A stretch of 38,655 bases of DNA from Fusobacterium mortiferum ATCC 9817 (GTDB lineage: Bacteria > Fusobacteriota > Fusobacteriia > Fusobacteriales > Fusobacteriaceae). Below, piece after piece: positions 15,731-31,959 of this stretch (position 1 is the stretch's first letter; each line of letters starts with the position of its first letter). The notes under the pieces were generated by a model that was given only the letters and a program-made list of their open reading frames with translations, did no database searches and was not told the DNA's origin. The stretch spans positions 199,547 through 238,201 of the forward strand of contig NZ_GL987991.1 in assembly GCF_000158195.2 (NCBI RefSeq), given 5' to 3'. The position numbers and the translations under genes are program-made.

Positions 15731-15763
15731 AAAAAAATCCCCAGTAAATTAATACTGAGGATT
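15731..15763 (-). terminator. Terminator closing the first mini-repressor/antirepressor cassette
   Basis: On the minus strand AATCCTCAGT pairs with ACTGGGGATT, followed by a T run. Closely similar in sequence to the terminator at 31967-31994 after the second cassette. Confidence 0.8.
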
Positions 15764-15768
15764 AATAA

Positions 15769-15879
15769 TTATTCTTCTTCTATTTTTTCTATTTTGGGTA
15801 TATCAACTTTAACTATCGGAACTTCAACTTCTATTTTAGGTACTTCAACATCAATTTTTGGAACTATGATTTTTTCCAT
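15769..15879 (-). CDS. 36-aa repetitive PKIEVE peptide
   Basis: A very short frame made of near repeats (V/I)PKI(D/E)VEVP: MEKIIVPKIDVEVPKIEVEV, then PIVKVDIPKIEKIEEE. It starts two bases after the stop of the Rha-like gene with no separate ribosome site, so translation would be coupled. A second, related peptide is encoded at 21257-21394. The alternating hydrophobic/charged pattern could form a beta strand or bind a partner; function unknown. Confidence 0.6.
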   Translation of the reverse strand: MEKIIVPKIDVEVPKIEVEVPIVKVDIPKIEKIEEE

Positions 15880-15881
15880 AA

Positions 15882-16553
15882 TTATATCATCTGTAATTGA
15901 GTATTCTCTATTCTTAGTTGATATGGTTCTATCCAATTAAAAATATATGGCATAACTGTTAGGTAATCTTTATATTTTAGTTCCACTAGACTATCAATAC
16001 CAAATCTTGATTGAATATCCTTTACTAATTCTTTCTTTAATCTTAGTTTGAAAGTTCTATTTGATATACCTGTACTTTTCATTCTTCTAAGAACTGTTTC
16101 AGTAATCTGTTCTTTTACAACTTCAACTTGGCTCCACGTCATAGGTATTTGATTTAACTCATTCTCTAGCTTTTGAATTTTAGTAAGTAACTCTCTATTC
16201 TCAATAAACTCTTGATGATAAATTAATTTTTCCATCTCTTCAAATCTATTGATATAAGCAACATTCAAATCAAAAGCTTTCTCTACTGCTGAACTATATC
16301 CTCCTATCAGTTGAGCTATTCCTTTTTTAGTGATTAGATAGTTTCTATAAGTTCTAAAATTTCCATTTACTTTATAATAACTTGGAATATAGAACTCTTT
16401 TATGAGGGCGGAACTTTCCGCTTTCGTGAATTTTCCTACATAATTATCAATTTTCTCTAATAAATCCTTATGTAATACTCCTAATTCTTCTGCTACTCTG
16501 TTACTTGTTGTAACCAAGATACCATCTACTTTTTCAACCACTACATTAAACAT
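15882..16553 (-). CDS. Rha-family phage regulator / antirepressor-type protein
   Basis: 223 residues. The N-terminal Phage_pRha-type domain (about 1-110) has VDGILVTTSNRVAEELGVLH then KDLLEKIDNYVG, and YLITKKGIAQLIGGYSS. The C-terminal part (about 130-223) resembles ORF6C-like modules attached to phage antirepressors. AGGAGGATAT precedes the ATG. Upstream on the same strand are the AbrB-like gene and a convergent small RNA, so this is placed where ant stands in phage P22 immI. Rha/Ant proteins affect lysogeny by countering repressors; the target here is unknown. Confidence 0.78.
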   Translation of the reverse strand: MFNVVVEKVDGILVTTSNRVAEELGVLHKDLLEKIDNYVGKFTKAESSALIKEFYIPSYYKVNGNFRTYRNYLITKKGIAQLIGGYSSAVEKAFDLNVAYINRFEEMEKLIYHQEFIENRELLTKIQKLENELNQIPMTWSQVEVVKEQITETVLRRMKSTGISNRTFKLRLKKELVKDIQSRFGIDSLVELKYKDYLTVMPYIFNWIEPYQLRIENTQLQMI

Positions 16554-16577
16554 TTTAATATATCCTCCTAAAAACGT

Positions 16578-16606
16578 TTGATTTTATGGAGTTAATGCAG
16601 TATAAT
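16578..16606 (+). promoter_or_regulatory. Promoter of antisense RNA 1
   Basis: TTGATT (16578-16583), 17-base spacer, TATAAT (16601-16606), reading against the Rha/AbrB transcript. The -35 box lies directly after the Rha ribosome binding site. Confidence 0.75.
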
Positions 16607-16612
16607 ATGATT

Positions 16613-16678
16613 GGCTAGGTCGTATTATACGGCTAACTCCTGTTGGAACTCGTAAGGGAACTGACAGGAGATTTTTTT
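16613..16678 (+). ncRNA. Antisense RNA 1 (sar-like, about 66 nt)
   Basis: Start inferred seven bases after the -10 box; end at the terminator CTCCTGT...ACAGGAG followed by seven T (16637-16678), which ends at the stop codon of the AbrB-like gene on the other strand. The RNA is fully complementary to the AbrB-Rha intercistronic leader. In the mRNA sense, GGAGTTA and GTATAATA pair with TATTATAC and TAACTCC to make a hairpin that spans the RNA promoter. Size and position match P22 sar RNA. Transcript not demonstrated. Confidence 0.65.
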
Positions 16679-16853
16679 ATTTCTTTTTTCTTATAATGAT
16701 TTCTTGAGTATCCTCATTTACTTCGATTTCTATTTCTCTTTCTTCTTGGTTAACTCCAATTTTATCAAGAAATGTTTTTGGGATATTAAGTTTTGGAGAA
16801 ATACTACCAGAACCACTTTTAAAGAAAGAAACTTTTAAAATCCTTTTTTCCAT
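16677..16853 (-). CDS. AbrB/MazE-like mini-repressor 1
   Basis: 58 residues (MEKRILKVSFFKSGSGSISP, then KLNIPKTFLDKIGV), the swapped-hairpin AbrB/MazE DNA-binding pattern: a strand, S/G turn, and a P-K-x-hydrophobic-x-x-hydrophobic-G helix. AAAGGAG precedes the ATG. It is paralogous to the 57-residue protein at 30582. The promoter is spanned by a 10-bp inverted repeat that is its likely operator, so autorepression is expected. No MazF-like toxin is adjacent; the downstream partner is the Rha-type gene. Confidence 0.75.
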   Translation of the reverse strand: MEKRILKVSFFKSGSGSISPKLNIPKTFLDKIGVNQEEREIEIEVNEDTQEIIIRKKK

Positions 16854-16866
16854 AAAGTTCTCCTTT

Positions 16867-16909
16867 GTCGTTCTGTTATAATTCTATCACAAGACAGAAC
16901 GACAGTCAA
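16867..16909 (-). promoter_or_regulatory. Promoter and inverted-repeat operator of mini-repressor 1
   Basis: On the minus strand TTGACT (16904-16909), 17 bases, TAGAAT (16881-16886). A perfect inverted repeat GTCGTTCTGT / ACAGAACGAC (16867-16876 and 16894-16903) flanks the -10 box, one arm in the spacer and one just downstream. Confidence 0.8.
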
Positions 16910-16956
16910 GATATTTTTATTATACTCCACTAGCTCCATAAATCTGTTTTTAGGTA

Positions 16957-16988
16957 AATAAAAACCTCAGAGTTATTTTTCTGAGGTT
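16957..16988 (-). terminator. Terminator of the DinJ/YafQ operon
   Basis: AACCTCAG pairs with CTGAGGTT across ten bases on the minus strand, followed by TTTTTATTT. Confidence 0.8.
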
Positions 16989-17000
16989 TAATTGCATTAT

Positions 17001-17273
17001 TTAAAATAAATCACTATGAGTTCCTGTTCTTGATAAAGTTAGGATTAATTTATTTTTTTCAATTTTATATATTAATAACCAATCAGGACGAATATGGCAC
17101 TCCATGTATCCTATATAATTTCCAATTAATTGATGATTTCTATACTTAGCTGGTAACACTTCTTCATTTGCTAATTTTTCAACGACTTCTTGAAGAAGCT
17201 TGAGATTATATCCCCTTTTTTTTAAAAGTTTATAATCTTTATCAAAAGCACTAGTAGTTATGATTTCTAACAT
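17001..17273 (-). CDS. yafQ: YafQ-family mRNA interferase toxin
   Basis: 90 residues, RelE/ParE fold. Motifs typical of YafQ: LPAKYRNHQLIGNYIGYMEC, HIRPDWLLIYK and the terminal LTLSRTGTHSDLF; the conserved histidines (HQL, ECHIRPDW, GTHSDLF) and aspartate are those used for ribosome-dependent mRNA cleavage in the family. It follows the antitoxin gene by five bases on one transcript and has its own terminator. All key residues seem present, so it is probably active. Confidence 0.9.
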   Translation of the reverse strand: MLEIITTSAFDKDYKLLKKRGYNLKLLQEVVEKLANEEVLPAKYRNHQLIGNYIGYMECHIRPDWLLIYKIEKNKLILTLSRTGTHSDLF

Positions 17274-17278
17274 TAACT

Positions 17279-17560
17279 TTAATCCTCCTTATCAAGAGCA
17301 TCAAAAAGTTCTTTGGTATTTTTATAAGTAGGACGTTTTACTTTTCCATTGATAATATCTTCTGTTTCTTGAATAGCTTTTATAGTTTCAACATTATAGT
17401 TTTCTATTCTTGCCTCAAATGGTAATCCACCTGTTCTAAGCATAGATTTGACAAACATATTAAAAGCTGTTGACATATTTAAACCTAACTCATTACATAA
17501 CTCATTAAAGGCTTTTTTATCTTCATCATCTAATCTTACATTGATAACTGATACTCCCAT
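17279..17560 (-). CDS. dinJ: DinJ/RelB-family antitoxin
   Basis: 93 residues from ATG 17560, seven bases after GGAGG; the frame opens two codons earlier at a TTG. The N-terminal ribbon-helix-helix (VINVRLDDEDKKAFNELCNE, LGLNMSTAFNMFVK) binds DNA as a dimer; the C-terminal tail (about 55-93) would wrap the YafQ toxin. Typical type II pair: antitoxin first, toxin second, autoregulated. Confidence 0.9.
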   Translation of the reverse strand: MGVSVINVRLDDEDKKAFNELCNELGLNMSTAFNMFVKSMLRTGGLPFEARIENYNVETIKAIQETEDIINGKVKRPTYKNTKELFDALDKED

Positions 17561-17592
17561 TTTCAAACCTCCTTAATATCTTTTATATATTA

Positions 17593-21657: not shown

Positions 21658-21680
21658 TATAATACTCTTATAAACAGAGT
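21658..21680 (+). promoter_or_regulatory. Repressor-gene promoter -10 box and operator copy 3
   Basis: TATAAT at 21658-21663 followed at once by ACTCTTATAAACAGAGT (21664-21680), an imperfect copy of the operator. No clear -35 box. Suggests autoregulation of the XRE repressor. Confidence 0.6.
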
Positions 21681-21696
21681 GAAAGGAGCAATTAAA

Positions 21697-22137
21697 ATGG
21701 AAAATTTTGCTTTATTAATAAAAAAATTCAGAGAGGATAGAGGACTTTCACAAAAACAATTAGCAGAAAAAGCTGGAATAGGTTCTGGAACTATTGGAGA
21801 TATTGAAAGAGGAGATAGAAAAGGAAAAATTTCTACATTAGATAAAATTTCTAAAGCTCTGAATTTAACTAAAGAAGAAAGAGATAGATTAGATAATGCT
21901 TTTATGGGAAGAAATATTACTTCTTCTTCAATTGACCCTAGAGTTGAAATCTTAAATAAAAAAGAAAAAAATCAATATGAAAAAACTATGAATGAAGCAG
22001 CTCTGTTTTTTAATGATGAAAACATTTCAGAAGAAGATAAACAAAAATTATTATTAGCTATGAATGAAATGTTTTTTATGAGTAAACAAATAAATAAAGA
22101 GAAATATGCCAAAAAGTCTGACAAAGATAAAAAGTAG
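21697..22137 (+). CDS. XRE-family phage repressor (CI-like)
   Basis: 146 residues from ATG 21697 (AAAGGAG upstream; an in-frame GTG six codons earlier is less likely). Helix-turn-helix at about 6-58: LIKKFREDRGLSQKQLAEKA, then GIGSGTIGDIERGDRKGK. The C-terminal half is helical and has no LexA-type Ser/Lys protease, so induction probably depends on the ImmA-type protease encoded next, as for ImmR of ICEBs1. Operators ACTCTG-N5-CAGAGT on both sides of the intergenic region are its likely sites. Confidence 0.85.
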   Translation: MENFALLIKKFREDRGLSQKQLAEKAGIGSGTIGDIERGDRKGKISTLDKISKALNLTKEERDRLDNAFMGRNITSSSIDPRVEILNKKEKNQYEKTMNEAALFFNDENISEEDKQKLLLAMNEMFFMSKQINKEKYAKKSDKDKK

Positions 22138-30466: not shown

Positions 30467-30518
30467 CATATTTCCTAAAGGTATTTTTGGAGTGAATGGA
30501 GTATAATAAAAAAATATC

Positions 30519-30581: not shown

Positions 30582-30755
30582 GTGGAAAAGAGGACAGCAA
30601 ATGTATCTTTTTCTAAAAGCGGTAATGGGATAGGAGCCAGAATAATATTATCTGTTCCCCTTTTAAAAAAGCTTGGAATAACTCAAGAGAACAGAGAAGT
30701 TGAAGTTATTTATGATGAAGAAAAGCAAACCATTACAATAAAGAAAAAGATATAA
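30582..30755 (+). CDS. AbrB/MazE-like mini-repressor 2
   Basis: 57 residues, GTG start eight bases after GAGGAGG. MEKRTANVSFSKSGNGIGAR, then SVPLLKKLGITQENREVEVI and a basic end ITIKKKI. Paralog of the protein at 16677-16853: shared MEKR, VSF-KSG, K-GI-QE-REVEV. Expected to bind its own inverted repeat. The downstream genes are a 96-aa protein and a Rha/Ant-type regulator, separated by a convergent antisense RNA. Confidence 0.75.
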   Translation: MEKRTANVSFSKSGNGIGARIILSVPLLKKLGITQENREVEVIYDEEKQTITIKKKI

Positions 30756-30824
30756 AAAAATCCCCTTAACAATCCACTAACATGAACTGATAAGGGGTTT
30801 TTGTAGTACAATAAGTACCGTAGC
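30754..30824 (-). ncRNA. Antisense RNA 2 (sar-like, about 71 nt)
   Basis: Reads against the cassette. Ends at CCCCTTA...TAAGGGG followed by seven T on the minus strand, precisely at the mini-repressor stop codon. The same hairpin has five T on the plus strand and could partly terminate the mRNA. In the mRNA sense, GTAGTACAAT pairs with ATTGTACTAC (30802-30811 and 30831-30840). Homologous to antisense RNA 1 in promoter and 5' region but with a different loop. Not experimentally shown. Confidence 0.65.
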
Positions 30825-30830
30825 AAGTAT

Positions 30831-30859
30831 ATTGTACTACATTAACTCCAAAAATACAA
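30831..30859 (-). promoter_or_regulatory. Promoter of antisense RNA 2
   Basis: Minus strand TTGTAT (30854-30859), 17 bases, TACAAT (30831-30836). Aligns base for base with the promoter of antisense RNA 1, sharing GGAGTTAATG in the spacer; both boxes are weaker. Confidence 0.6.
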
Positions 30860-30878
30860 GTTTTTAGGAGGAAAAAAT

Positions 30879-31169
30879 ATGCTAAGTGAACAATCAAGAG
30901 GAGTAATTGAGTTTATTGATGAGTGTAGAGCTCAAGGTATGATAAAAGATGAATTATACCTAAAAGAAGAAGAGATGTGGAGAACTTTATCAGATTTAGA
31001 AGTAGTAATGAAAAGAAGTCCAGAGGATAGAGCACTATACTGGAAACTTGAAACATTAATATCTGAAGCTATCGTTCTTGTAAAAGATACTTACTTTGAG
31101 TATGGAGAAAACTTTGAAAGCACTCAAATGAATAAACTCATAGCAAAGGTAAATAAGGAGGCAATGTAG
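30879..31169 (+). CDS. Acidic helical protein (96 aa) in cassette 2
   Basis: TTTAGGAGG precedes the ATG. Helical: GVIEFIDECRAQGMIKDELY, EEMWRTLSDLEVVMKRSPED, RALYWKLETLISEAIVLVKD. One base before the Rha/Ant-type gene, so cotranslated with it. No counterpart in cassette 1. Function unknown. Confidence 0.65.
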   Translation: MLSEQSRGVIEFIDECRAQGMIKDELYLKEEEMWRTLSDLEVVMKRSPEDRALYWKLETLISEAIVLVKDTYFEYGENFESTQMNKLIAKVNKEAM

Positions 31170-31170
31170 T

Positions 31171-31959
31171 ATGAATGATTTGATGGTAAGAGAGAAAAAA
31201 GAAGAAATAACAAGTCTTGAACTTGTAGAACAGATAAATGTATTTAGAAAACAAGAAGGAAAGAAAACAGAATTACAACATTTTAATTTGTTGGCTGTAA
31301 TCCGTGATGAATTTGAAGAAGAAATTAACGCCCTAAAAATTCAAGCCGTTGAATATAGAGATAAAAAGGGAGAATTAAGACCTATGTATATATTAACTCT
31401 TAACCAAGCTAAACAAGTTTTAATGAGAGAAAGTAAATTTGTAAGAAAAGCAGTTATACACTATATAGAAGAATTAGAAAAACAACTTGGAACAATAGTT
31501 AGTTATGAAGACAGATTAAAACTAGGCTTATTTTCAAAAGACCCTGAAGTTGTAGCTCGTTCTCATAAAGCTTTACTAGAATTAGAGTTAAAACCTTTAA
31601 AAGAAGAAATTGAGAAAAAGACAAAAGAAATAGAGTATAAAGAAGATGTAATTATTGGCTTAACTGATAAAATTGATTTAATGGATATGAGACAAATTTT
31701 AAATACAGTAGTTAGATATAAAGGAGCTAACTATCAAGAAAGATGGAGATTATTGTATTTTGAATTTGAAAAGAAATATCATCTTGATTTGAAAAGAAGA
31801 ATAAATAGTTACAATAAAAATCATAAACCCAAACTGAAAAATAAGTTAGATTATATTGATATAGAAATGAAAAAACTTCCTCAATTATATGAAATAGCTT
31901 GTAAATTATTTGAAGGCGATATTAATCAAATAGTAGAAAATTATAAAAAAGTATGTTAA
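31171..31959 (+). CDS. Rha/Ant-type phage regulator 2
   Basis: 262 residues. The N-terminal domain (about 10-105) has the Rha pattern ITSLELVEQINVFRKQEGKK, YRDKKGELRPMYILTLNQAK, VLMRESKFVRKAVIHYIEEL. A coiled coil follows (about 125-170), then a basic C-terminal domain (175-262). It occupies the antirepressor position of cassette 2. Likely acts on a repressor or host regulator; target unknown. Confidence 0.75.
   Translation: MNDLMVREKKEEITSLELVEQINVFRKQEGKKTELQHFNLLAVIRDEFEEEINALKIQAVEYRDKKGELRPMYILTLNQAKQVLMRESKFVRKAVIHYIEELEKQLGTIVSYEDRLKLGLFSKDPEVVARSHKALLELELKPLKEEIEKKTKEIEYKEDVIIGLTDKIDLMDMRQILNTVVRYKGANYQERWRLLYFEFEKKYHLDLKRRINSYNKNHKPKLKNKLDYIDIEMKKLPQLYEIACKLFEGDINQIVENYKKVC

Follow-up and report, generated by a model that had tools for sequence, protein, structure and literature searches.

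Known antirepressor control systems

The immI region of phage P22 is the long-standing textbook case of control by a repressor plus an antisense RNA. In P1/P7, the c4 RNA lies on the same strand and transcript as its target. In pT181/pIP501 rep attenuation and in erm-type leaders, mutually exclusive hairpins are selected by an antisense RNA or by the ribosome. The immI region of P22 has been summarised (PMC2629481), and its sar RNA runs from 38,571 to 38,468, starts within ant and covers the ant ribosome site (PMC13397905); ant is annotated from 38,566. P1 immI uses c4 RNA and Icd (PMC8201110).

Organization of cassette 1

The locus described here was found in Fusobacterium mortiferum ATCC 9817, within a 38.7-kb stretch of DNA that was analyzed as a whole (the window, to which all coordinates refer). 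The window is part of a prophage, with genes for a serine integrase, for recombination (RecT and YqaJ) and for replication, a CI-like repressor (21679-22137) accompanied by a metallo-protease, a terminase and a portal. On the minus strand, cassette 1 (the 58-aa gene, rha, the 123-nt gap between them and a terminator) follows a RelB/YafQ pair. A reading of the region from its letters alone (the sequence-only reading) had proposed an AbrB-based analogue of P22 arc-sar-ant. Every element that it named (the 58-aa open reading frame, the plus-strand promoter, the RNA of about 66 nt, Rha and the terminator) was found in its place, and the parts of cassette 1 are thereby confirmed. The inverted repeat that it placed across the operon promoter is present, perfect and spans the promoter, but is 11 bp long rather than 10 bp. 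Absent from that reading were the recurrence of the module, the hairpin that hides the Shine-Dalgarno sequence, the inverted copy at 16918-16954 and the ribbon-helix-helix versions. The features of cassette 1 are as follows:

15736..15763, minus strand: intrinsic terminator of the operon (11 pairs, T5 tail)
15882..16553, minus strand: Rha-type antirepressor gene, 223 aa, ORF6C-like C-terminus (PF09669 E 4.7e-15, 56.4 bits and above the cut-off of 29.9; PF10552 weak; phrog_373 anti-repressor E 2e-19)
16554..16676, minus strand: intercistronic leader with three hairpins, H1, H2 and H3 (123 nt; leader model, covariation)
16564..16591, minus strand: hairpin H3, CTCC...AGGAGG, which hides the rha Shine-Dalgarno (92% of cells paired; folding)
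16578..16606, plus strand: predicted antisense RNA promoter (Psar equivalent), TTGATT (16578)-17-TATAAT (16606)
16597..16633, minus strand: hairpin H2, whose 3' arm contains the antisense -10 and whose loop contains the antisense start (inverted repeat; covariation)
16613..16678, plus strand: predicted antisense RNA, ~66 nt, with an intrinsic terminator made of H1 plus T7 (fold; conserved terminator)
16637..16670, minus strand: hairpin H1, which abuts the repressor stop codon
16677..16853, minus strand: 58-aa AbrB-fold repressor gene (phrog_2329 E 7e-17; Pfam MazE_antitoxin E 0.007, below cut-off)
16866..16904, no strand assigned: probable operator, an 11-bp perfect inverted repeat (sequence; shuffles; related loci)
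16881..16909, minus strand: predicted operon promoter (Pant equivalent), TTGACT-17-TAGAAT with TG before the -10 (10/12 matches)
16918..16954, minus strand: inverted copy of the leader H2-3'arm/H3 region, ~8 nt upstream of the operon -35 (25 nt, 88%)

From its family annotation (Rha/ORF6C), the Rha of cassette 1 would act as an antirepressor. The RelB/YafQ toxin-antitoxin pair next upstream of cassette 1 (17001-17566, minus strand) is complete, and the flank that separates it from the repressor gene is also found at a cassette elsewhere in the genome.

Comparison with P22, P1 and other leaders

Cassette 1 is like P22 immI in that a small gene, here probably self-repressing, is followed by an antirepressor gene on a single transcript with a single downstream terminator. 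At the level of sequence it also has a convergent RNA promoter in the gap, whose RNA would end at the 3' end of the repressor gene. A ribbon-helix-helix repressor is a further likeness, found only in sister loci; the repressor of cassette 1 itself has a predicted AbrB fold, whereas Arc is a ribbon-helix-helix protein. The gap measures 123 nt in cassette 1 and 68 nt in P22. While sar covers the ant ribosome site, the predicted RNA of cassette 1 starts at 16613, ~45 nt upstream of the rha ribosome site (16564-16569). Cassette 1 also has a dedicated Shine-Dalgarno hairpin, and instead of a divergent mnt it has the co-oriented RelB/YafQ pair upstream. The P22 arc-ant gap folds barely better than its shuffles (z -0.9), and the leader model gave no match up to E 10 in the two P22 stretches searched. 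The claim that cassette 1 arose independently of P22 is fair only in the sense that no sequence homology was detected. The analogy itself is supported by the recurrent gene order, by the antirepressor families that include P22_AR_N and by the ribbon-helix-helix versions. The unit is best filed as one that would work like immI and share its logic rather than its sequence, and not as a member of immI.

The likeness to P1/P7 immI (c4-icd-ant) lies in an antirepressor placed under presumed antisense control, and the small gene found at many loci between leader and antirepressor recalls icd; the Fusobacterium RNA, by contrast, would be convergent and made from its own promoter. The window contains no Rfam match to c4, which is also absent from the eight sub-threshold matches at 16450-17000. 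Gathering scores are reached in the window by tRNAs only, and by no Rfam family in the leader. Unlike pT181/pIP501 and erm-type leaders, the leader described here would mask a ribosome site in a prophage antirepressor operon; only the leaders of the solitary variants L097 and L098 apparently run into a terminator.

A three-hairpin leader hides the rha Shine-Dalgarno

The three-hairpin anatomy of the leader is conserved and covaries. Across 36 sequences, 92.4% of the cells in H1-H3 are paired, compared with 82.2% in shuffled and 39-57% in slid alignments, and 0/500 shuffles reach as high a value; because the alignment used (A6) had been fitted to the structure, these pairing figures lean towards it. 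In the same 36 sequences, two-sided changes occur in 15 of the 22 leader pairs, including 5/5 pairs of H1 and 6/9 pairs of H2. H2, with its two-sided changes, was also recovered by RNAalifold alone on a plain MAFFT alignment. A covariance model made with MAFFT plus RNAalifold (R1) captured H2 only, and a second model (R2) was used instead. H3 retains G-U wobble pairs facing a fixed Shine-Dalgarno. The mean unpaired probability of the Shine-Dalgarno is 0.22 in 44 leaders and 0.47 in 105 control genes (p 3e-6). A new feature is the concealment of the Shine-Dalgarno by a conserved hairpin; instead of covering the site, the antisense RNA would lock this hairpin. This hairpin favors the earlier proposal that the RNA acts through leader folding and not by covering the site.

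A predicted antisense RNA that ends at the repressor stop codon

On the opposite strand, about 46/53 leaders carry TTG or a close variant, a spacing of exactly 17 bp and then TA-N3-T. Promoter-like matches occur in the region about as often as in shuffles (41 against an expected 37.7), and single matches are therefore weak when taken alone. The antisense promoter nevertheless stands above chance because it is exactly conserved, in the same place, in these leaders. The loop of H3 is variable across the aligned leaders except for an invariant CAA, the complement of the antisense -35 TTG, which is hard to explain unless the antisense promoter is used. At the other end of the predicted RNA, the H1 terminator hairpin is present in 51/52 leaders and is followed in 45/52 by a run of at least five T (A on the sense strand, right after the stop codon). 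The predicted RNA folds with -23.8 kcal/mol (z -4.5; 0/200 shuffles as good), and it is presumably expressed.

The 58-aa repressor and its operator

The 58-aa protein is predicted to adopt a beta-beta-alpha-beta-beta arrangement (AlphaFold2, pLDDT 86). The leading structural matches of the model are AbrB, SpoVT, MazE, Abh and VapB, with moderate Z scores of 5.4-4.7 and 44-50 residues aligned at an rmsd of about 1.6-2.5. The model thus places the protein in the AbrB/MazE swapped-hairpin fold class. It resembles the AbrB/MazE/SpoVT proteins in predicted fold and differs from them in its length of 58 aa, in that no toxin partner was seen and in that it heads an antirepressor operon.

The arms of the probable operator, TGTCGTTCTGT (16866-16876) and ACAGAACGACA (16894-16904), are perfect, are separated by 17 nt and span the operon promoter; this inverted repeat is equalled in 0/60 shuffles. 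Most related loci have an inverted repeat at the same offset and of another sequence (27/39 at p<=0.05), and at most AbrB loci the repeat begins ~50 nt ahead of the start codon. Such locus-specific sequences are as expected of autoregulators with private operators. The 58-aa protein would bind this operator and repress its own operon.

A likely fold switch between H1 and H3

The CTCC of H3 offers an alternative partner to the GGAG of the H1 3' arm. Blocking the first 19 nt of the leader, to mimic a ribosome at the stop codon, increases the predicted Shine-Dalgarno exposure by more than 0.1 in 17/27 leaders. When the antisense footprint is blocked, the Shine-Dalgarno stays hidden in 26/27 leaders (0.00-0.23), the exception being G089 (0.37). 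In the cassette 1 leader, blocking H1 raises exposure from 0.19 to 0.25 only. Covariation between GGAG and CTCC in fixed alignment columns does not exceed that in shuffles (80.6 vs 80.2%). In register-free comparison, and there only, the alternative pairing is stronger within than between loci, also when the outer segment is taken alone (matched -7.3 vs swapped -5.9 kcal/mol; 0/20,000 permutations as good). The position of H1 beside the stop codon is also required by the antisense terminator, and so is not by itself proof of translation coupling. A ribosome-coupled switch of the leader folds is therefore likely; the leader would change from one fold to the other in step with translation of the repressor gene.

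A probable two-level lock on the antirepressor

In cassette 1, a prophage antirepressor gene is probably locked at two levels, in a manner like that of P22 immI and with the fold switch as part of the lock. At the first level, the 58-aa protein would shut its own operon through the inverted repeat across the promoter. At the second, the convergent promoter in the leader would yield the ~66-nt antisense RNA ending at the repressor stop codon, and its pairing partners on the mRNA would be H1 and the 5' half of H2. H3 would enclose the rha Shine-Dalgarno, which would be freed once the CTCC of H3 is taken up by the GGAG of the H1 3' arm; melting of H1 by a ribosome that ends the repressor gene would make this easiest. 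By occupying the GGAG, the antisense RNA would keep H3 shut, and Rha would not be made. By analogy with P22, a self-limiting burst of antirepressor would be expected after infection and silence in the lysogen.

The same antisense unit might instead work mainly through collision of RNA polymerases or by marking the duplex for RNase III, with the Shine-Dalgarno hairpin as a passive brake. The operon and antisense promoters are indeed convergent, with about 270 bp between them, the duplex would be fully complementary, and release of H1 hardly frees the site in the cassette 1 leader. However, H2 and H3 covary although interference needs neither of them, and the better match of the alternative pairing within loci also speaks against this account, which is considered unlikely.

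A second cassette and inverted upstream copies

The genome holds two further leader copies, one in the window at 30806 and one at G000:C5:88774. The features of the second cassette in the window are as follows:

30474-30508, plus strand: inverted copy of the Psar/H3 region, upstream of the repressor promoter
30582..30755, plus strand: AbrB-fold gene, 57 aa, GTG start (phrog_2329 E 1.3e-14)
30756..30878, plus strand: leader (model score 124 bits; folding), with an antisense RNA predicted on the minus strand from ~30819 to 30755
30879..31959, plus strand: 96-aa gene plus 262-aa Rha/antirepressor-like gene, behind the leader (phrog_63 anti-repressor Ant E 6.7e-7; Pfam pRha E 1.7e-4, below cut-off)

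The 96-aa gene (30879-31169) has no Pfam match. The inverted copy of the leader region upstream of the repressor promoter, present at both cassettes, is also new. It occurs in 23/53 loci, about 260-290 nt before the leader and just upstream of the repressor promoter, and it matches its own leader better than other leaders (38.5 vs 23.5). Its -35 is often missing, and its internal spacing varies, often being 4-6 nt shorter. Only transcripts begun further upstream would include the copy, with a predicted duplex of 16-35 pairs with the leader, and the copy could fold such read-through transcripts. Two roles were considered for it. A second promoter is disfavored because the -35 is often deleted. 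For a read-through insulator the duplex is predicted, but Shine-Dalgarno exposure shifts without a consistent sign.

H2 and the inverted copy might also be DNA sites for a further protein, such as a phage or host regulator, with the RNA folds as by-products of palindromes. The arms of H2 (~11 nt, with a gap of 16-20 nt) are operator-like, and the copy is a DNA inverted repeat ~310 bp away that is more similar to its own leader than to others. This explanation is improbable, as the spacing within the upstream copy varies, unlike that of a protein site, and H3 keeps G-U wobbles opposite the fixed Shine-Dalgarno.

Recurrence of the leader in Fusobacteriota

About 53 leaders were read overall. The covariance model finds the leader in 31/98 Fusobacteriota genomes and 11/29 genera, and also in prophage or phage contigs; leader DNA was also matched, with E 1e-13 or better, in four more species of the genus. 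Members of the AbrB family phrog_2329 are encoded by 44/98 Fusobacteriota genomes. The order AbrB, gap, Rha/Ant, which the sequence-only reading had suggested looking for in other Fusobacterium prophages, is recurrent. A contig search with the AbrB alignment returned one locus only, in Fusobacterium gastrosuis. Fusobacterium phage phiKSUM has a similar rha and no leader in the stretch searched. A protein distantly like AbrB (50-56% over 32 aa) is encoded by Clostridioides phages; two of these phages (L184 and L186) have this protein, a gap of ~300 nt and a 270-aa gene, annotated in L186 as an AAA ATPase, and the leader model gave no match on either.

Variants of repressor and target

At related loci the leader is preceded by an AbrB-type or a ribbon-helix-helix repressor, the latter being the fold class of P22 Arc. 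Eight further leader matches follow other small proteins, and 5/6 of the distinct sequences have ribbon-helix-helix-type Pfam matches, mostly weak. At one locus (L163) the leader stands 134 nt behind a 214-aa CI-type (XRE)-like gene and ahead of a 95-aa and a Bro-N-like gene; the CI-type gene is a possible third repressor type.

The downstream genes belong mostly to antirepressor families (Rha, AntA/KilAC, Bro-N/KilAC and P22_AR_N), and the antirepressor gene follows the leader directly or behind an intervening gene of 38-99 aa. P22_AR_N, the N-terminal domain of P22 Ant, is found downstream at a sister locus. The intervening genes fall into several families, with clusters of 11, 7 and 7. A few leaders precede other targets: an outer-membrane barrel protein (L128), a 2-hydroxyacid dehydrogenase (L159 and L165) and a 580-aa surface-type protein (L174).

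A search of the examined downstream genes for a MazF-like partner, which had been named beforehand as incompatible with the immI analogy, turned up neither this nor any other toxin. It is very improbable that the 58-aa protein is a MazE-type antitoxin beside an unrelated phage gene, with the leader as an ordinary terminator region: the weak Pfam MazE_antitoxin match and the presence of MazE and VapB among the structural matches would fit, but this reading was rejected because those downstream genes include no toxin partner, and the neighboring RelB/YafQ pair is complete by itself and the leader is conserved with unrelated repressors.

Several loci depart from the layout of cassette 1. L159 and L165 have the leader with no recognized repressor open reading frame, before 2-hydroxyacid dehydrogenase-like and membrane-type genes, and are apparently chromosomal. 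L087, L097 and L098 are solitary AbrB-plus-leader units, L087 with three AbrB genes within 2 kb; in L097 and L098 a sense terminator apparently replaces H3, as if for transcription attenuation. L092, L119 and L128 form a subclass whose longer leader, of about 175-185 nt, precedes the gene of a secreted-type or outer-membrane protein, and L092 and L119 have GGGG/CCCC instead of GGAG/CTCC.

Implications for prophage control in Fusobacteriota

Beyond the two-level lock of cassette 1, a wider reading is put forward tentatively, as possible but somewhat doubtful. The antisense RNA and the three-hairpin translation-coupling leader may form a portable RNA unit of Fusobacteriota, with interchangeable repressors (AbrB, ribbon-helix-helix) and targets (antirepressors, outer-membrane protein, 2-hydroxyacid dehydrogenase) and with an upstream inverted copy that refolds read-through transcripts. 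A literature search, with most subscription papers outside its coverage, returned no description of such a unit.

Cassette 1 shows the logic of immI in another phylum, with another repressor fold, a predicted RNA placed off the ribosome site and ribbon-helix-helix sister forms. If confirmed, this would point to convergent or modular evolution of antirepressor control and would give Fusobacteria a new RNA family. It would also offer a large set of natural variants, the majority having an operator of their own, in which to study the evolution of leader switches and orthogonal small repressors. The unit would mark prophage switches in a medically relevant phylum in which few RNAs have been mapped.
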